Below, one piece after another: positions 3-8,584 of a stretch of DNA of 64,000 nucleotides. The notes under the pieces were generated by a model that ran no database searches, had not been told where the DNA came from, and was given only the letters and a program-made list of their open reading frames with translations. How positions within the stretch are numbered: position 1 is the first letter of the stretch; every line of letters begins with the position of its first letter. The DNA is from a bacterium BRH_c32 (GTDB lineage: Bacteria > Bacteroidota > Ignavibacteria > Ignavibacteriales > Melioribacteraceae), in assembly GCA_001516025.1 (NCBI GenBank), contig LOEU01000021.1:1-64000 (forward strand), in the 5' to 3' direction. The translations under genes and the position numbers were made by a program.

Positions 3-827
3 GATAAAACATTTGATTTTCCTAAATCTCTTTATCTCATGGAAGACATTCTTAAGCTGATGCTAAAAAAAGATGGATTAATTCTCGACTTTTTTTCGGG
101 TTCTGCGACAACTGCTCACGCTGTTATCCAATTAAATGCAGTAGAAGGGGGAAATAGAAAATATGTGATGGTTCAAATTCAGGAGCAGACTGATGAAAAA
201 TCAGAAGCAAATAAAGTCGGATATAAAACGATTTCTGATATAGGTAAGGAAAGAATTCGAAGAGCCGGGAAAAAGATAAAAGAAGAGTTCTTGGCTCAAT
301 ACAACAAAGAACTGGAAGATATTAACAAGCAACTTGAACAAGAAACTTTAGATGGTAGTGAAGAGCTTAAAGAAAAAAAAGCAGAACTAGAAGCAAAGAT
401 TGAGCATATAAATAATCTAGATATTGGTTTTAGAGTATATAGAACAGACTCCAGTAACATGAAAGATATTTTCTATCATCCAACTAGTTTAACCCAACTA
501 CAACTATCCGCTTTTGAAAGCAATATAAAAGAAGATAGAACTCCGGAAGACCTGTTAACTCAAGTTATACTTGATCTTGGTCTTGAGTTATCTCTTCCAA
601 TTGAGAAAAAAGAAATTCTTGGAAACAATGTTTTCATTGTTCAAGAGAATGCTTTAGTTGCCTGTTTTGATGATAGTATTGATTTTGGAATAGTTGATAA
701 GATTGCGGATTTAAAACCGCTTAAAGTTGTGTTCAAGGATGCAAGTTTTAAAGATGATAAGGATAGGGTTAATGTTGAAGAGAGGTTCAAAAGATTATCA
801 CCGGAAACAATTATCTCAGTTATTTAA
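3..827 (+). CDS. mod: Type III restriction-modification DNA adenine methyltransferase (Mod), C-terminal part
   Basis: The reading frame is open from base 3, so the N-terminal part lies outside the window. The visible 274 residues begin with FDFPKSLYLMEDIL, as in type III Mod proteins just before AdoMet motif I. Motif I follows as LDFFSGSATTAHAV, which binds S-adenosylmethionine. The TRD and the DPPY catalytic motif would normally precede this point in a beta-class enzyme and are not visible here. A charged coiled-coil-like stretch follows, then the alpha/beta C-terminal domain of Mod proteins. The product should methylate adenine in an asymmetric recognition site, and Mod also supplies specificity to the Mod-Res complex. 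It ends 83 bp before res, so the two are probably co-transcribed. The first ATG in the window (39) is internal to the protein and is not the true start. Confidence 0.88.
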   Translation, partial: DKTFDFPKSLYLMEDILKLMLKKDGLILDFFSGSATTAHAVIQLNAVEGGNRKYVMVQIQEQTDEKSEANKVGYKTISDIGKERIRRAGKKIKEEFLAQYNKELEDINKQLEQETLDGSEELKEKKAELEAKIEHINNLDIGFRVYRTDSSNMKDIFYHPTSLTQLQLSAFESNIKEDRTPEDLLTQVILDLGLELSLPIEKKEILGNNVFIVQENALVACFDDSIDFGIVDKIADLKPLKVVFKDASFKDDKDRVNVEERFKRLSPETIISVI

Positions 828-4059: not shown

Positions 4060-5208
4060 ATGACTGACCCAAGAATTAAATATTACCCAGTAGACAATGC
4101 TGATTGTTCTTTGATTACTCTTACGGATGAAACGAAAATTCTAATTGATGTTTCTATTACATTTGATGCAGAGGATGAAAAGAACAAGGACAGATATAAT
4201 GTTCGAAGAGACATATTAGATAATGAACTTAAAAAAGAAAAAGAAATCCCATTTTTAGATGTATTCATTCTCACCCATCCTGATGAAGACCATATTAGGG
4301 GCTATAACGACTATTTCTATAGTGGAAAACCAGAAAATTACGGTGCAAAGGATAAGGAAAATGAAAAAATAGTTATCGGTGAACTATGGTATACTCCAAT
4401 TCTATTTGATCGATATACGGCGGAATTATGTGAAGATGCAATAATTTTCAAACAGGAAGCCAAGCGAAGAATGGATTTATTCAAAGAGGATAAATCAGAA
4501 GGAAATAAAGACGGGAATAGAATTAGAATAATTGGATATACTGAAAATAAAGAACTTGAAGGGTTGGAAGAAAGAATTGTCGTTCCCGGGAGTCTAATTT
4601 CTGAATTCAATGGTAAAATAAAAAGTGATTTTCGTTTATTCATTCACGCACCATTTAAAGATGCTTTTAAAGATGATGACAGAAATGAAACAAGTATAGT
4701 TTTTCAGGCAAAATTTGATGTAGATAAAAAAGTGGATGCTGGTCTATCAATTTTTTGTGGTGACGCAGGATGGCGAGTTTGGGAAAAAATATTAGATGTT
4801 AGTAATGTGGAAGACGTAAACTGGGATTTATTTCTAGCCCCACATCATTGTTCATGGACGTTTTTTAATGATAATACGGAAGAGGGGAAAAAAGAACCAA
4901 AAGAGTCTTCGTTGAAGGTACTTGATAACAAGCTAGGTTCGAATCCAGTAGTAATCTCATCAAGCAAAGAAATCAAGAACAATGACGACAACCCGCCTAG
5001 CTATAAAGCCAAAAGTCAATATGTAAAAAAAGTAGGAGAAAAATGTTTTCTTAATACGGCAACCGATTCTGGAACAAAACCTCCAGAACCAATTGAGTTT
5101 GAAATTAAAAGCACTGGACCACAAAGAACAAACAAAAAAACAAAGAGCGGAACGAAATCTCTCTTAATTGGAGAAGCAGTAAGCCAACCCAAGACTTATG
5201 GAAACTAA
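4060..5208 (+). CDS. ComEC-like metallo-beta-lactamase-fold protein of an E2-E1-JAB operon
   Basis: The 382-residue protein has a metallo-beta-lactamase (MBL) fold without a signal peptide or membrane segments. Metal-binding motif THPDEDH is at residues 72-78. Then come NETSIVF near 209-215, FCGDAGW with D235, and APHHCSW with H262-H263. This is the pattern of the free MBL domain seen at the C terminus of ComEC/Rec2 and in conflict-system hydrolases. The likely role is hydrolysis of a phosphodiester or another small substrate, but the substrate cannot be read from sequence. GGAG lies just before the ATG. The stop codon overlaps the start of the E2-E1-JAB gene by 11 bp, which suggests translational coupling and a shared function. 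The C terminus is a basic, probably flexible tail ending TYGN, which might be a conjugation target; that last point is speculation. Confidence 0.85.
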   Translation: MTDPRIKYYPVDNADCSLITLTDETKILIDVSITFDAEDEKNKDRYNVRRDILDNELKKEKEIPFLDVFILTHPDEDHIRGYNDYFYSGKPENYGAKDKENEKIVIGELWYTPILFDRYTAELCEDAIIFKQEAKRRMDLFKEDKSEGNKDGNRIRIIGYTENKELEGLEERIVVPGSLISEFNGKIKSDFRLFIHAPFKDAFKDDDRNETSIVFQAKFDVDKKVDAGLSIFCGDAGWRVWEKILDVSNVEDVNWDLFLAPHHCSWTFFNDNTEEGKKEPKESSLKVLDNKLGSNPVVISSSKEIKNNDDNPPSYKAKSQYVKKVGEKCFLNTATDSGTKPPEPIEFEIKSTGPQRTNKKTKSGTKSLLIGEAVSQPKTYGN

Positions 5209-7480
5209 ATTATTTTCTTCTGAATATGAAAATATAAAAGAGAAACACTATCCAGTAGGATTAAAACAGGAATTGGACAAGGTTTCAACATTATTTATTG
5301 AACAAGCCTATAACGTATTTTCATATTGTGGCGATATAGGAATATCCTTTTCTTTAAGAATACCCTTACCAACGAGGGGAACATTTAACAACGTTGATAT
5401 CAGGGAAGTGGAACCAGTATTTATTAGAATTAAACATGATTTATGGAGACAACAGGCTCCGAAGGTATATAGTGACAGAAGAGACTTTCCAATGTCAAAA
5501 CTGTCTCACATGAATCCAGTATGGAAAAATTCGCCTCCTTCTTTTTGTTTACATCGGGGAAGCATTAATGAGTGGTATGCGGAACATACACTCACAGAAT
5601 ATATTGAAAGGATTAGAGAGTGGTTAAGAGATGCTTCTGCGGATAGATTAATAAAATTGGGTCAAGGTGACGAATTCGAAATTACTCGGATTGAAAATTC
5701 GATTGGTTATATAGTCTATGATTATGAAGAGTTTAATAATCACGCTTTGAATGGGGAAGAATCTTTTCGATTTATTATGTATGAAATCTCAAAAGACAGT
5801 CTTTTAGAAAAAGAGAATAAGAGCTATTCTATTAAATCAAATGGAATACTCGCAAAAGATAAATATGAGGAAGCGAAACAATTCTTTGAAGAGTTAAGTA
5901 AAGAAATTAAAGTTACGTTTGGAATTCTTTTATATCCCAAAATGGACTTTGTATCAACCGACTATTTCGGAGAAATGCCAGAAAAATATTCGGATTTAAT
6001 AGAATTCTGTAACAGAATTGATATTAACATTGAAAAAGCAATAAATGAATATTTATCTCTAGGATTTAATTTCCTAAAAGGAATTCCTATTACTATTGCG
6101 ATTAGAAGACCACGAAAACTAATAGGATACAAATACAATGTAGAGTTCTTGAATTTTGTAGTATTAAATTCATTGGAGAATAATAGTGTGGAGTTATCAA
6201 TTAATGGTGATAGCACTGTTTCGATGCTTTCAAACCGAAAACCAGTAACATTAGAACTGTCCAAGTTTTTGTCAAATTCAGAACTAGCGGACACAAATAA
6301 AACTTTAGTTTTTGGGTGCGGGGCAGTAGGTTCCAAGTTAATTATGCACCTAGCAAGGGGCGGGCTAAATAACATAGTAGTTGTTGATGATGATAAATTA
6401 TCTCCCCATAACCTAGTTCGTCATGCTTTGTTTTCTCGTAGTGTAGGGAAAAATAAAGGTGAGGCAATAAAAAAAGAAATTGATGACATTTATAAAGCAG
6501 ACCACGATTTTAAATTTGACATTATCGAAAAAAAAGGAGAAGAATTTCTTGAAAAGTTCGAATCAAAAGATTATCAAGTTGAAAGAATAATAGATTCTAC
6601 TGCTTCCCATGTATTTCAAAACTATATATCTGATCATAGAAGAATTTCGAAGCATGTATATAGGTGTGAAATTGCATGGAATGGTAATATTGGAATCCTA
6701 AAGAAAGAAGGTAAGGAAAGAAGCCCACGGCTTGATGATTTAACAATTCAACTTTATGACAGAGCTGTTGAAGATGATTACCTAGCAAATTGGTTGAAAC
6801 AATATTATGATAACATTAAAAGCGGAGGCTTTGAGTTCGAGGAAATAAATGTTGGTGCTAGCTGTAACTCTGAAACCGTTAGAATGTCTGATGATATCAT
6901 TTCGTTACATACTGCTTTGTTTTCTCTTGGCATAAAAGAACTAGAAGAAAGCGAAAGGGGCTTTATTTACTTAACAAAAAGACTTAATGAGCATGGTAGC
7001 AAAAAACTTCTAACTGAAAAAATAGAATTCGGTAAAGTAATGGAGAGATGGTTTGACAATGATAGAAGTTGGCAGTTGAGAATTTCTGAGGAAAGTTATT
7101 CCTATTTATCACAGCAACTCTTTGAAAATATTCCAAACGAAACAGGGGGATTGTTGCTTGGTAGAATAGATTTTAAGAGAAAGATTATTTATGTGACTCG
7201 AGTCATTGATGCTCCTGAAGATAGCGTAAAAAAACCATACTGTTTTAAAAGAGGAGTAAAAGATATTCCAGAAATATTAGAAAAAGTTAGAAAAAGGACT
7301 GGTAATATGATAGATTTTGTTGGAGAGTGGCATACACACCCAGGGAAAGATGGTTCGTTAAGTATCGTTGATAAACAAGCGATTAAAGAATTGCGTAAAA
7401 GCTTGGATAGAATTCCATACCCTACGTTCATTCTTGTAGTAACAACTAAGAAGCTACACCCTTATATATTTGGACAGTAA
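5198..7480 (+). CDS. E2-E1-JAB fusion protein (ubiquitin-like conjugation and deconjugation enzyme)
   Basis: A single 760-residue polypeptide carries three modules. Residues about 70-150 resemble prokaryotic E2-like domains, with candidate catalytic C117 in PPSFCLHRG followed by a helix starting INEWYAEHTL. Residues about 365-590 are a ThiF/E1 adenylation domain: FGCGAVGSK (372-380), acidic VVDDDKLSPHNLVRH with D397-D399, N405 and R408, and a candidate thioester cysteine C556 in VGASCNSET. Residues about 628-760 are a JAB/JAMM metalloprotease: E648, WHTHP with H712 and H714, S722 and D725, so all metal ligands are present. By family knowledge it should adenylate a C-terminal carboxylate, pass it through cysteines, and have a protease to remove or process the conjugate. 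No ubiquitin-like or CD-NTase gene accompanies it, which distinguishes it from Bil/BUB operons and type II CBASS. Confidence 0.9.
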   Translation: METKLFSSEYENIKEKHYPVGLKQELDKVSTLFIEQAYNVFSYCGDIGISFSLRIPLPTRGTFNNVDIREVEPVFIRIKHDLWRQQAPKVYSDRRDFPMSKLSHMNPVWKNSPPSFCLHRGSINEWYAEHTLTEYIERIREWLRDASADRLIKLGQGDEFEITRIENSIGYIVYDYEEFNNHALNGEESFRFIMYEISKDSLLEKENKSYSIKSNGILAKDKYEEAKQFFEELSKEIKVTFGILLYPKMDFVSTDYFGEMPEKYSDLIEFCNRIDINIEKAINEYLSLGFNFLKGIPITIAIRRPRKLIGYKYNVEFLNFVVLNSLENNSVELSINGDSTVSMLSNRKPVTLELSKFLSNSELADTNKTLVFGCGAVGSKLIMHLARGGLNNIVVVDDDKLSPHNLVRHALFSRSVGKNKGEAIKKEIDDIYKADHDFKFDIIEKKGEEFLEKFESKDYQVERIIDSTASHVFQNYISDHRRISKHVYRCEIAWNGNIGILKKEGKERSPRLDDLTIQLYDRAVEDDYLANWLKQYYDNIKSGGFEFEEINVGASCNSETVRMSDDIISLHTALFSLGIKELEESERGFIYLTKRLNEHGSKKLLTEKIEFGKVMERWFDNDRSWQLRISEESYSYLSQQLFENIPNETGGLLLGRIDFKRKIIYVTRVIDAPEDSVKKPYCFKRGVKDIPEILEKVRKRTGNMIDFVGEWHTHPGKDGSLSIVDKQAIKELRKSLDRIPYPTFILVVTTKKLHPYIFGQ

Positions 7481-7497
7481 TAGTAAAGGAGTTTTTT

Positions 7498-7989
7498 ATG
7501 AAAGAAATAATCGAGAAGATTTCATCGTATAACATTTTCAACTATTTATTCCCAGGAATTATATTCACACAGGTACTGAATACACTTACCCCCTATAATT
7601 TAATCGGTGATGATATTGTAACGGAATTATTCAAATATTACTTTATTGGATTGGTTATCAGTCGCTTTGGGTCGATAGTTATTGAACCTTTTTTAAGAAA
7701 AACCAAGCTATTAAAGTTTGCCGATTATTCAGATTTCATTAGCTCTTCAAAAAAGGATCCCAAAATAGATTTATTATCAGAAGTTAATAATATGTATAGA
7801 ACTATATTATCCGCAATTGTCCTTCTATTCTTATCCAAACTTTGGAATATTATCGAAATATATTATTTAATTGATACAAAAATTTCTCTTCTATTGGTTG
7901 TTGCCATGGTAGGATTCTTATTTTTGTTTTCTTATGTAAAACAGACAAATTATATCAAGAAGAGAATTGATAATGCTAAATCAAAATAA
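7498..7989 (+). CDS. Small multi-pass membrane protein of the E2-E1-JAB operon
   Basis: I do not recognise a named family. The 163-residue protein opens with a short amphipathic stretch and SSYNIFNYLFPGIIF, and has about four hydrophobic helices (roughly residues 13-30, 46-64, 102-123 and 129-147). A polar segment (about 66-98) lies between helices 2 and 3, and the C terminus is basic. GGAG precedes the ATG, and the gap to the E2-E1-JAB stop is only 17 bp, so it is the third gene of that operon. Small membrane proteins that end defence operons often act as effectors that damage the envelope; that role here is inferred from position only. Confidence 0.7.
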   Translation: MKEIIEKISSYNIFNYLFPGIIFTQVLNTLTPYNLIGDDIVTELFKYYFIGLVISRFGSIVIEPFLRKTKLLKFADYSDFISSSKKDPKIDLLSEVNNMYRTILSAIVLLFLSKLWNIIEIYYLIDTKISLLLVVAMVGFLFLFSYVKQTNYIKKRIDNAKSK

Positions 7990-7996
7990 TTAATCC

Positions 7997-8584
7997 TTAT
8001 GTAGAATATTTCATCACCGTTCCGGTCGAAATATTCAAAAGTTTTGCTACTCCCCGGATTGAATTATTCTTTCTTAGCTCTAATAATATCCTTTCCTTCA
8101 TTTTTTCTTTTCCAGGGCGACCGATCTGTTTTCCATTAAGACGGGCTTTTTCTAATCCGGCTTTAGTTCGTTCGGATATCTTTTCTCTTTCAAGTTTTGC
8201 AAAGTAGCTCATTACCGATAAAAGAATGTTTGAGACAAGCTCGTTATCGGTTGTGAGATATTCTTCAGTGTAACTATGAAATTTTATACCATACTCATCC
8301 AACTGCTTTAAATACATCATCGTCTTAAAAATTCCTTCGCGCGAAAATCGGTCGATACTCCAAAAGATTATCATCTGAAATTTTCGTTGATGGGCTTCCT
8401 TAAACAACATATCAAAAGAAGCTCTTTCTTTTCTTCCTTTGGAGCCCGACTCGTGGTCTTCATAGATTTTGTAAATCTGATAGTTGTTTGATTTGCAAAA
8501 CTTTTTTAGCTGAATAATTTGGTTTTGTGTGTCTTGTCCATTGTTCTTAGTTAAAACTCTTGAATATATAGCTACTATCATCAT
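7997..8584 (-). CDS. Serine recombinase (resolvase/invertase family)
   Basis: This 195-residue protein has the resolvase catalytic fold. IYSRV near the N terminus carries catalytic Ser8. EDHESGSKGRKERASFDML, the FWSIDRFSREG motif and the long E helix LEREKISERTKAGLEKAR follow. The short C terminus, GVAKLLNISTGTVMKYS, is a helix-turn-helix, so this is a small resolvase/invertase rather than a large serine integrase. It converges on the membrane-protein gene with only 7 bp between stops. A 9-bp inverted repeat (GAATATTTC, 8004-8012 and 8028-8036) lies inside its last codons. It is probably what remains of the mobile element that carried the defence genes, although no att or res sites could be defined. 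Two ATGs are adjacent at the start. Confidence 0.9.
   Translation of the reverse strand: MMIVAIYSRVLTKNNGQDTQNQIIQLKKFCKSNNYQIYKIYEDHESGSKGRKERASFDMLFKEAHQRKFQMIIFWSIDRFSREGIFKTMMYLKQLDEYGIKFHSYTEEYLTTDNELVSNILLSVMSYFAKLEREKISERTKAGLEKARLNGKQIGRPGKEKMKERILLELRKNNSIRGVAKLLNISTGTVMKYST

Follow-up and report, generated by a model that had tools for sequence, protein, structure and literature searches.

A predicted 6A-MBL anti-phage operon from a Melioribacteraceae bacterium, in which an MBL hydrolase may itself be the conjugated modifier

A single protein carrying E2, E1 and JAB domains raises the question of what it attaches to what, here with its gene lying between those of a metallo-beta-lactamase (MBL) hydrolase and a small membrane protein. 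The window, by which is meant the whole stretch of 64,000 nucleotides analysed (positions 1 to 64,000 of contig LOEU01000021.1, bacterium BRH_c32), holds these three genes in one direction at 4060-7989. The MBL and fusion genes overlap by 11 bp and the gap from the fusion gene to the membrane protein gene is 17 bp; the same reading frames and spacings had led an earlier note on this DNA to describe a tight operon. Its type III restriction-modification neighbour was likewise recovered, with matches to ResIII, RE_endonuc and N6_N4_Mtase upstream, the mod gene being incomplete because the window begins at the contig start. The features of the locus are:

3..827, + strand, type III Mod methylase (neighbour); N6_N4_Mtase, 5' end missing at the contig end
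911..3910, + strand, type III restriction enzyme Res (neighbour); Pfam ResIII and RE_endonuc
4060..5208, + strand, MBL hydrolase ORF, 382 aa, core at residues 1-361; 6A-MBL_enzyme NF058524, ComEC-like
5143..5205, + strand, MBL C-terminal tail, residues 362-382, predicted E1/E2 substrate tail; disordered, pLDDT < 50
5200..5202, + strand, codon of the conserved near-terminal G381, with one trailing residue, N382; from the alignment of MBL tails
5198..7480, + strand, E2-E1-JAB fusion ORF, 760 aa; 6A-MBL_cap2_3, NF058523
5381..5674, + strand, E2 domain (Prok-E2_A, residues 62-159), C117 at 5546-5548
6293..6865, + strand, E1 (ThiF) domain, residues 366-556, with the invariant C556 at 6863-6865
7049..7453, + strand, JAB/JAMM isopeptidase domain, residues ~618-752, with E648, H712, H714, S722 and D725
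7498..7989, + strand, membrane protein ORF, 163 aa, four-helix, PDC-M48A family; predicted membrane effector
7997..8584, - strand, serine recombinase (neighbour, mobility), by domain match

The recombinase gene follows the membrane protein gene directly and is convergent to it; recombinase genes are also close to the operon in two related loci (L033 and L042).

Judged by sequence, the MBL-fusion pair belongs to a type that has a name already: it is operon type 6a in Iyer et al. and the "anti-phage 6A-MBL system" of NCBIfam. As those authors described it in 2006 (PMC1779556), row 6a comprises a triple-module E2-E1-JAB protein almost always adjoining a metallo-beta-lactamase. Both window proteins scored above the curated NCBIfam cut-offs (the MBL 358.7 bits against NF058524, cut-off 220; the fusion 513.4 bits against NF058523, cut-off 320), the order of MBL then E2-E1-JAB is identical and the two genes are adjacent in one operon. 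The third gene is PDC-M48A in the window and a patatin, a member of another transmembrane (TM) family or lacking in other loci. The earlier note had correctly placed triple-domain proteins with MBL neighbours in published surveys and knew of no characterised antiviral mechanism for the arrangement; in NCBIfam the pair is already named as an anti-phage system. No paper on the 6A-MBL mechanism, on 6A-MBL or on PDC-M48 was found in the openly readable literature, although one may exist, as that name suggests.

Within the fusion the Pfam domains are ordered Prok-E2_A (62-159), ThiF (367-434) and Prok-JAB (634-741), the last region being matched by the PADLOC JAB model as well, and the best match in the PDB was Cap2 (7to3, E 1e-22). 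Across 35 aligned fusion proteins C117, C556, E648, H712, S722 and D725 are invariant and H714 nearly so, which bears out the E2 cysteine, E1 cysteine and complete JAMM motif that had been read in one chain. Pfam Lactamase_B matched the MBL weakly; its nearest solved fold is the MBL domain of ComEC (E 2e-12), with further matches to PNGM-1 and the RNA-processing MBL of the U7 snRNP and weaker ones to RNase Z types, and AlphaFold gave a pLDDT of ~95 across most of the core. H73, D77, H78, H262 and H263 do not vary across the 32 proteins aligned, and the enzyme is likely to be an active nuclease or phosphodiesterase because HxDxDH and the later metal ligands are conserved.

Relatives were found widely. 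A scan with the MBL alignment gave 208 encoded relatives, of which the 80 kept are mostly from Bacteroidota but also from archaea, Clostridium and Proteobacteria; NF058524 exceeded its cut-off in 8 of 396 genomes of the same phylum, 250 plasmid records carried relatives, half of them from Klebsiella, and the fusion as a single-protein query against genome contigs gave no match. Among the loci examined, 84 (window included) pair an MBL gene with an E2-E1-JAB gene in the same direction, nearly always next to it, and the pair is kept together across phyla, counter to what would have refuted the defence reading of the earlier note. Enrichment in defence islands, for which that note had also asked, is seen qualitatively as restriction and abortive-infection genes around the relatives, set against a small control. 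At 1e-20, 94 neighbour proteins of related loci matched 179 PADLOC families, a count inflated by overlapping models, compared with one family for 39 other window proteins. The families include AbiL, AbiE, AriA and type I and IIG restriction-modification, and Pfam matches in the neighbours include AAA_21, AbiEii, HsdM, RloB, Mrr_cat and WYL, with WYL regulators adjoining the MBL in plasmid copies. One of these, the E. coli plasmid homologue L134, has an MBL with the C-terminus PRAGVSNQ, an E2-E1-JAB protein of 742 aa, a WYL regulator gene in divergent orientation and a TM gene. In L072 (3867-5752) the genes immediately upstream of the 6A-MBL operon encode an AAA ATPase and an RloB-like protein, resembling PARIS/AriAB, and L088, L090 and L093 are similar.

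The feature that bears most directly on the question is the end of the MBL. A glycine was found 0-6 residues from the C-terminus in 84/84 fusion-paired MBLs and within 2 residues in 72; after dereplication at 70% identity the counts were 45/45 and 37/45, compared with 30 and 17 when the last 30 residues were shuffled. Only 3 of 18 other MBLs of the same loci had such a glycine (Fisher p 7e-12), a p value that, like the one given below, overstates independence, since the loci share ancestry and the dereplication softens this only in part. The paired tails are of low complexity and end in glycine plus 0-6 residues, e.g. QPKTYGN (window), IISQG, PRAGR, PKRHG and TGFGSYNE. Plasmid copies from Proteobacteria and Actinobacteria share the tail type (PRAGVSNQ, PHGAS, RGHG, VGFGR), and the glycine is also present in copies from E. 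coli, Klebsiella, Vibrio, Acinetobacter, Rhizobium and Rhodococcus. No comparable conserved C-terminal residue was seen in the alignments of the fusion and the membrane protein. Members of the MBL family that lack the fusion gene were considered as a natural control and set aside: L064 (6001-7236) and L078 (5980-7170) still have a 4-TM gene, but their MBL tails diverge exactly where the glycine is expected and resemble deletion junctions, and L106 is arranged differently.

The closest parallel to such a tail is type II CBASS. Its CD-NTase has no ubiquitin fold, and the terminal Gly/Ala shows conservation only where the operon also holds Cap2 and Cap3; the glycine is required for thioester formation and conjugation, which Cap3 reverses (PMC10097602). 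In a B. cereus system the cyclase is conjugated to PspA (PMC11153139). The window fusion has the equivalents of both accessory proteins, a Cap2-like E2-E1 with its catalytic cysteines and a Cap3-like JAMM isopeptidase, beside an enzyme with a near-terminal glycine on a loose tail; both systems have a membrane-acting effector, a predicted one in the window, with patatins occurring in both, and CapW/CapH-P-type regulators are carried by loci of the 6A-MBL relatives. The differences are that the window has an MBL hydrolase in place of a CD-NTase (neither a CD-NTase nor another nucleotidyltransferase was found in the three operon proteins and the scanned adjacent proteins), that E2-E1 and JAB form one chain and that the predicted 6A-MBL effectors have no recognised nucleotide-sensor domain.

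The reading preferred here, with a probability of roughly 0.68, is that the predicted 6A-MBL anti-phage operon works like type II CBASS, with the MBL hydrolase replacing the nucleotide cyclase. The fusion probably attaches the neighbouring MBL itself to targets by way of the conserved tail glycine. Because that glycine, on a disordered tail, repeats the signature of the type II CBASS CD-NTase, we infer that the MBL takes the CD-NTase role as a conjugated modifier, which E1/E2 would activate and JAB would trim or release. In over half of the loci left by dereplication residues follow the glycine, hence the prediction of a trimming step, in which the JAB domain would first remove them (N382 in the window). 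The intact motifs and the tail suggest that the E1 domain would then adenylate the C-terminal glycine and pass the MBL as a thioester to C556 and on to C117 of the E2. By analogy with Cap2 and Cap3, the E2 would join the MBL to acceptor proteins and JAB would reverse this. Conjugation or release would poise the ComEC/RNase Z-like hydrolase. On infection the MBL, the membrane protein or both would be unleashed and the cell sacrificed through membrane damage, a step suggested by the interchangeable membrane-acting third genes. The earlier proposal that conjugation controls the MBL or a membrane effector thus keeps its defence role and its conjugation acting on the MBL, but in the likeliest view the MBL serves as the modifier that is conjugated and is not merely something controlled.

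What the membrane protein contributes is less uniform across loci. The 163-residue protein matched PADLOC PDC-M48A (E 3.7e-62) and phrog_11864 with no Pfam match, and was predicted as four long helices (pLDDT 85), in keeping with the small membrane protein first described; the model had no significant fold match in the PDB. The clusters of downstream genes comprise patatins (12, supported by Pfam Patatin), two 4-TM families (12 and 11), a 2-TM family (7) and M48A (5, with the window). Loci with nothing downstream often have the same families directly upstream of the MBL. Among the 74 loci whose flanks are complete, 63 have a membrane-acting partner no more than 1.2 kb away. On sequence grounds the third gene supplies a membrane-acting partner that can be exchanged for another, and it is not a fixed component; the MBL and fusion stay while the membrane gene is swapped among families. 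By likeness to the patatins of CBASS, the M48A protein would be a membrane-damaging effector. An unlikely variant makes the MBL a ubiquitin-like modifier whose acceptor is the membrane partner or, as for Atg8, a membrane lipid, such that conjugation would place the hydrolase at the membrane and both would act together.

The same gene also suggests a different division of labour, in which the MBL and the membrane protein would act as a toxin pair like PDC-M48 (an M48A membrane protein and an M48B MBL), regulated by the fusion through conjugation or deconjugation of the membrane protein instead of the MBL. M48A does occur beside other ComEC-like MBLs as a two-gene pair lacking E1/E2 and the fusion gene: in a P2-like phage (L046, 5001-6589), a small plasmid (L045, 1878-3466) and a viral contig (L131, 5592-7100). 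The window MBL resembles M48B weakly (E 1.5e-4, best stretch 49-83). The pair reading is quite improbable, since patatin, 4-TM and 2-TM families replace the membrane partner while the MBL and fusion remain together. A second ComEC-like MBL (MBL2), without the terminal glycine, was observed directly before the membrane gene in L103 (4116-8966) and also in L098, L100, L101, L104, L105 and L094, which gives one operon in the order MBL2, membrane gene, 6A-MBL, E2-E1-JAB.

Bil and Bub systems also combine bacterial E1/E2/JAB conjugation with a defence setting, and among their genes is one for a beta-grasp ubiquitin-like protein. It is very unlikely that the fusion likewise conjugates such a protein encoded elsewhere in the genome, with the MBL as target or independent effector: classical E1/E2 systems do use beta-grasp modifiers and the search covered the local neighbourhood, but no small ubiquitin-like (beta-grasp) ORF was found in the operon or its flanking gaps and the near-terminal glycine of all paired MBLs would be left unexplained.

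A further caveat comes from the gene overlap. In all 17 loci with YG tails, window included, the TAT-GGN codons contain the in-frame ATG of the fusion gene (5198-5200 in the window, overlapping the first base of the G381 codon), and roughly half the loci have a TATGGN start overlap. The overlap may fix the tyrosine and the first base of the glycine codon, and the tail could then be uninformative on conjugation. Yet 21-23 of the 45 dereplicated loci have no start overlap and retain the glycine; in the strict non-overlap set, from which L061 and L114 are left out for having YG in their tails as well, it is present in 21/21 compared with 3/18 controls (p 3e-8). AG, QG, FG and CAC-G tails keep it outside the TATGGN arrangement, and where NAT-GNN pairs occur near MBL ends the second codon is glycine in 24/30, with only its first base fixed by the overlap. 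The overlap as the whole cause of the glycine was rejected on these counts, and a tail that is a by-product of the fusion start is highly improbable.

If the preferred reading is true, the MBL would be a second enzyme-as-modifier besides the CD-NTases, which would extend the enzyme-as-ubiquitin principle from these to MBL hydrolases. What is new from the 84-locus comparison is the near-terminal glycine of the paired MBLs and the interchangeable third gene. When the type 6a E1-E2-JAB machinery was recognised in 2006, no substrate was known for it; the near-universal MBL glycine points to the residue that is likely to be the substrate, and one point mutant could answer the question. It also suggests a shared defence layout, consisting of a sensor or enzyme, reversible conjugation and an interchangeable membrane effector.
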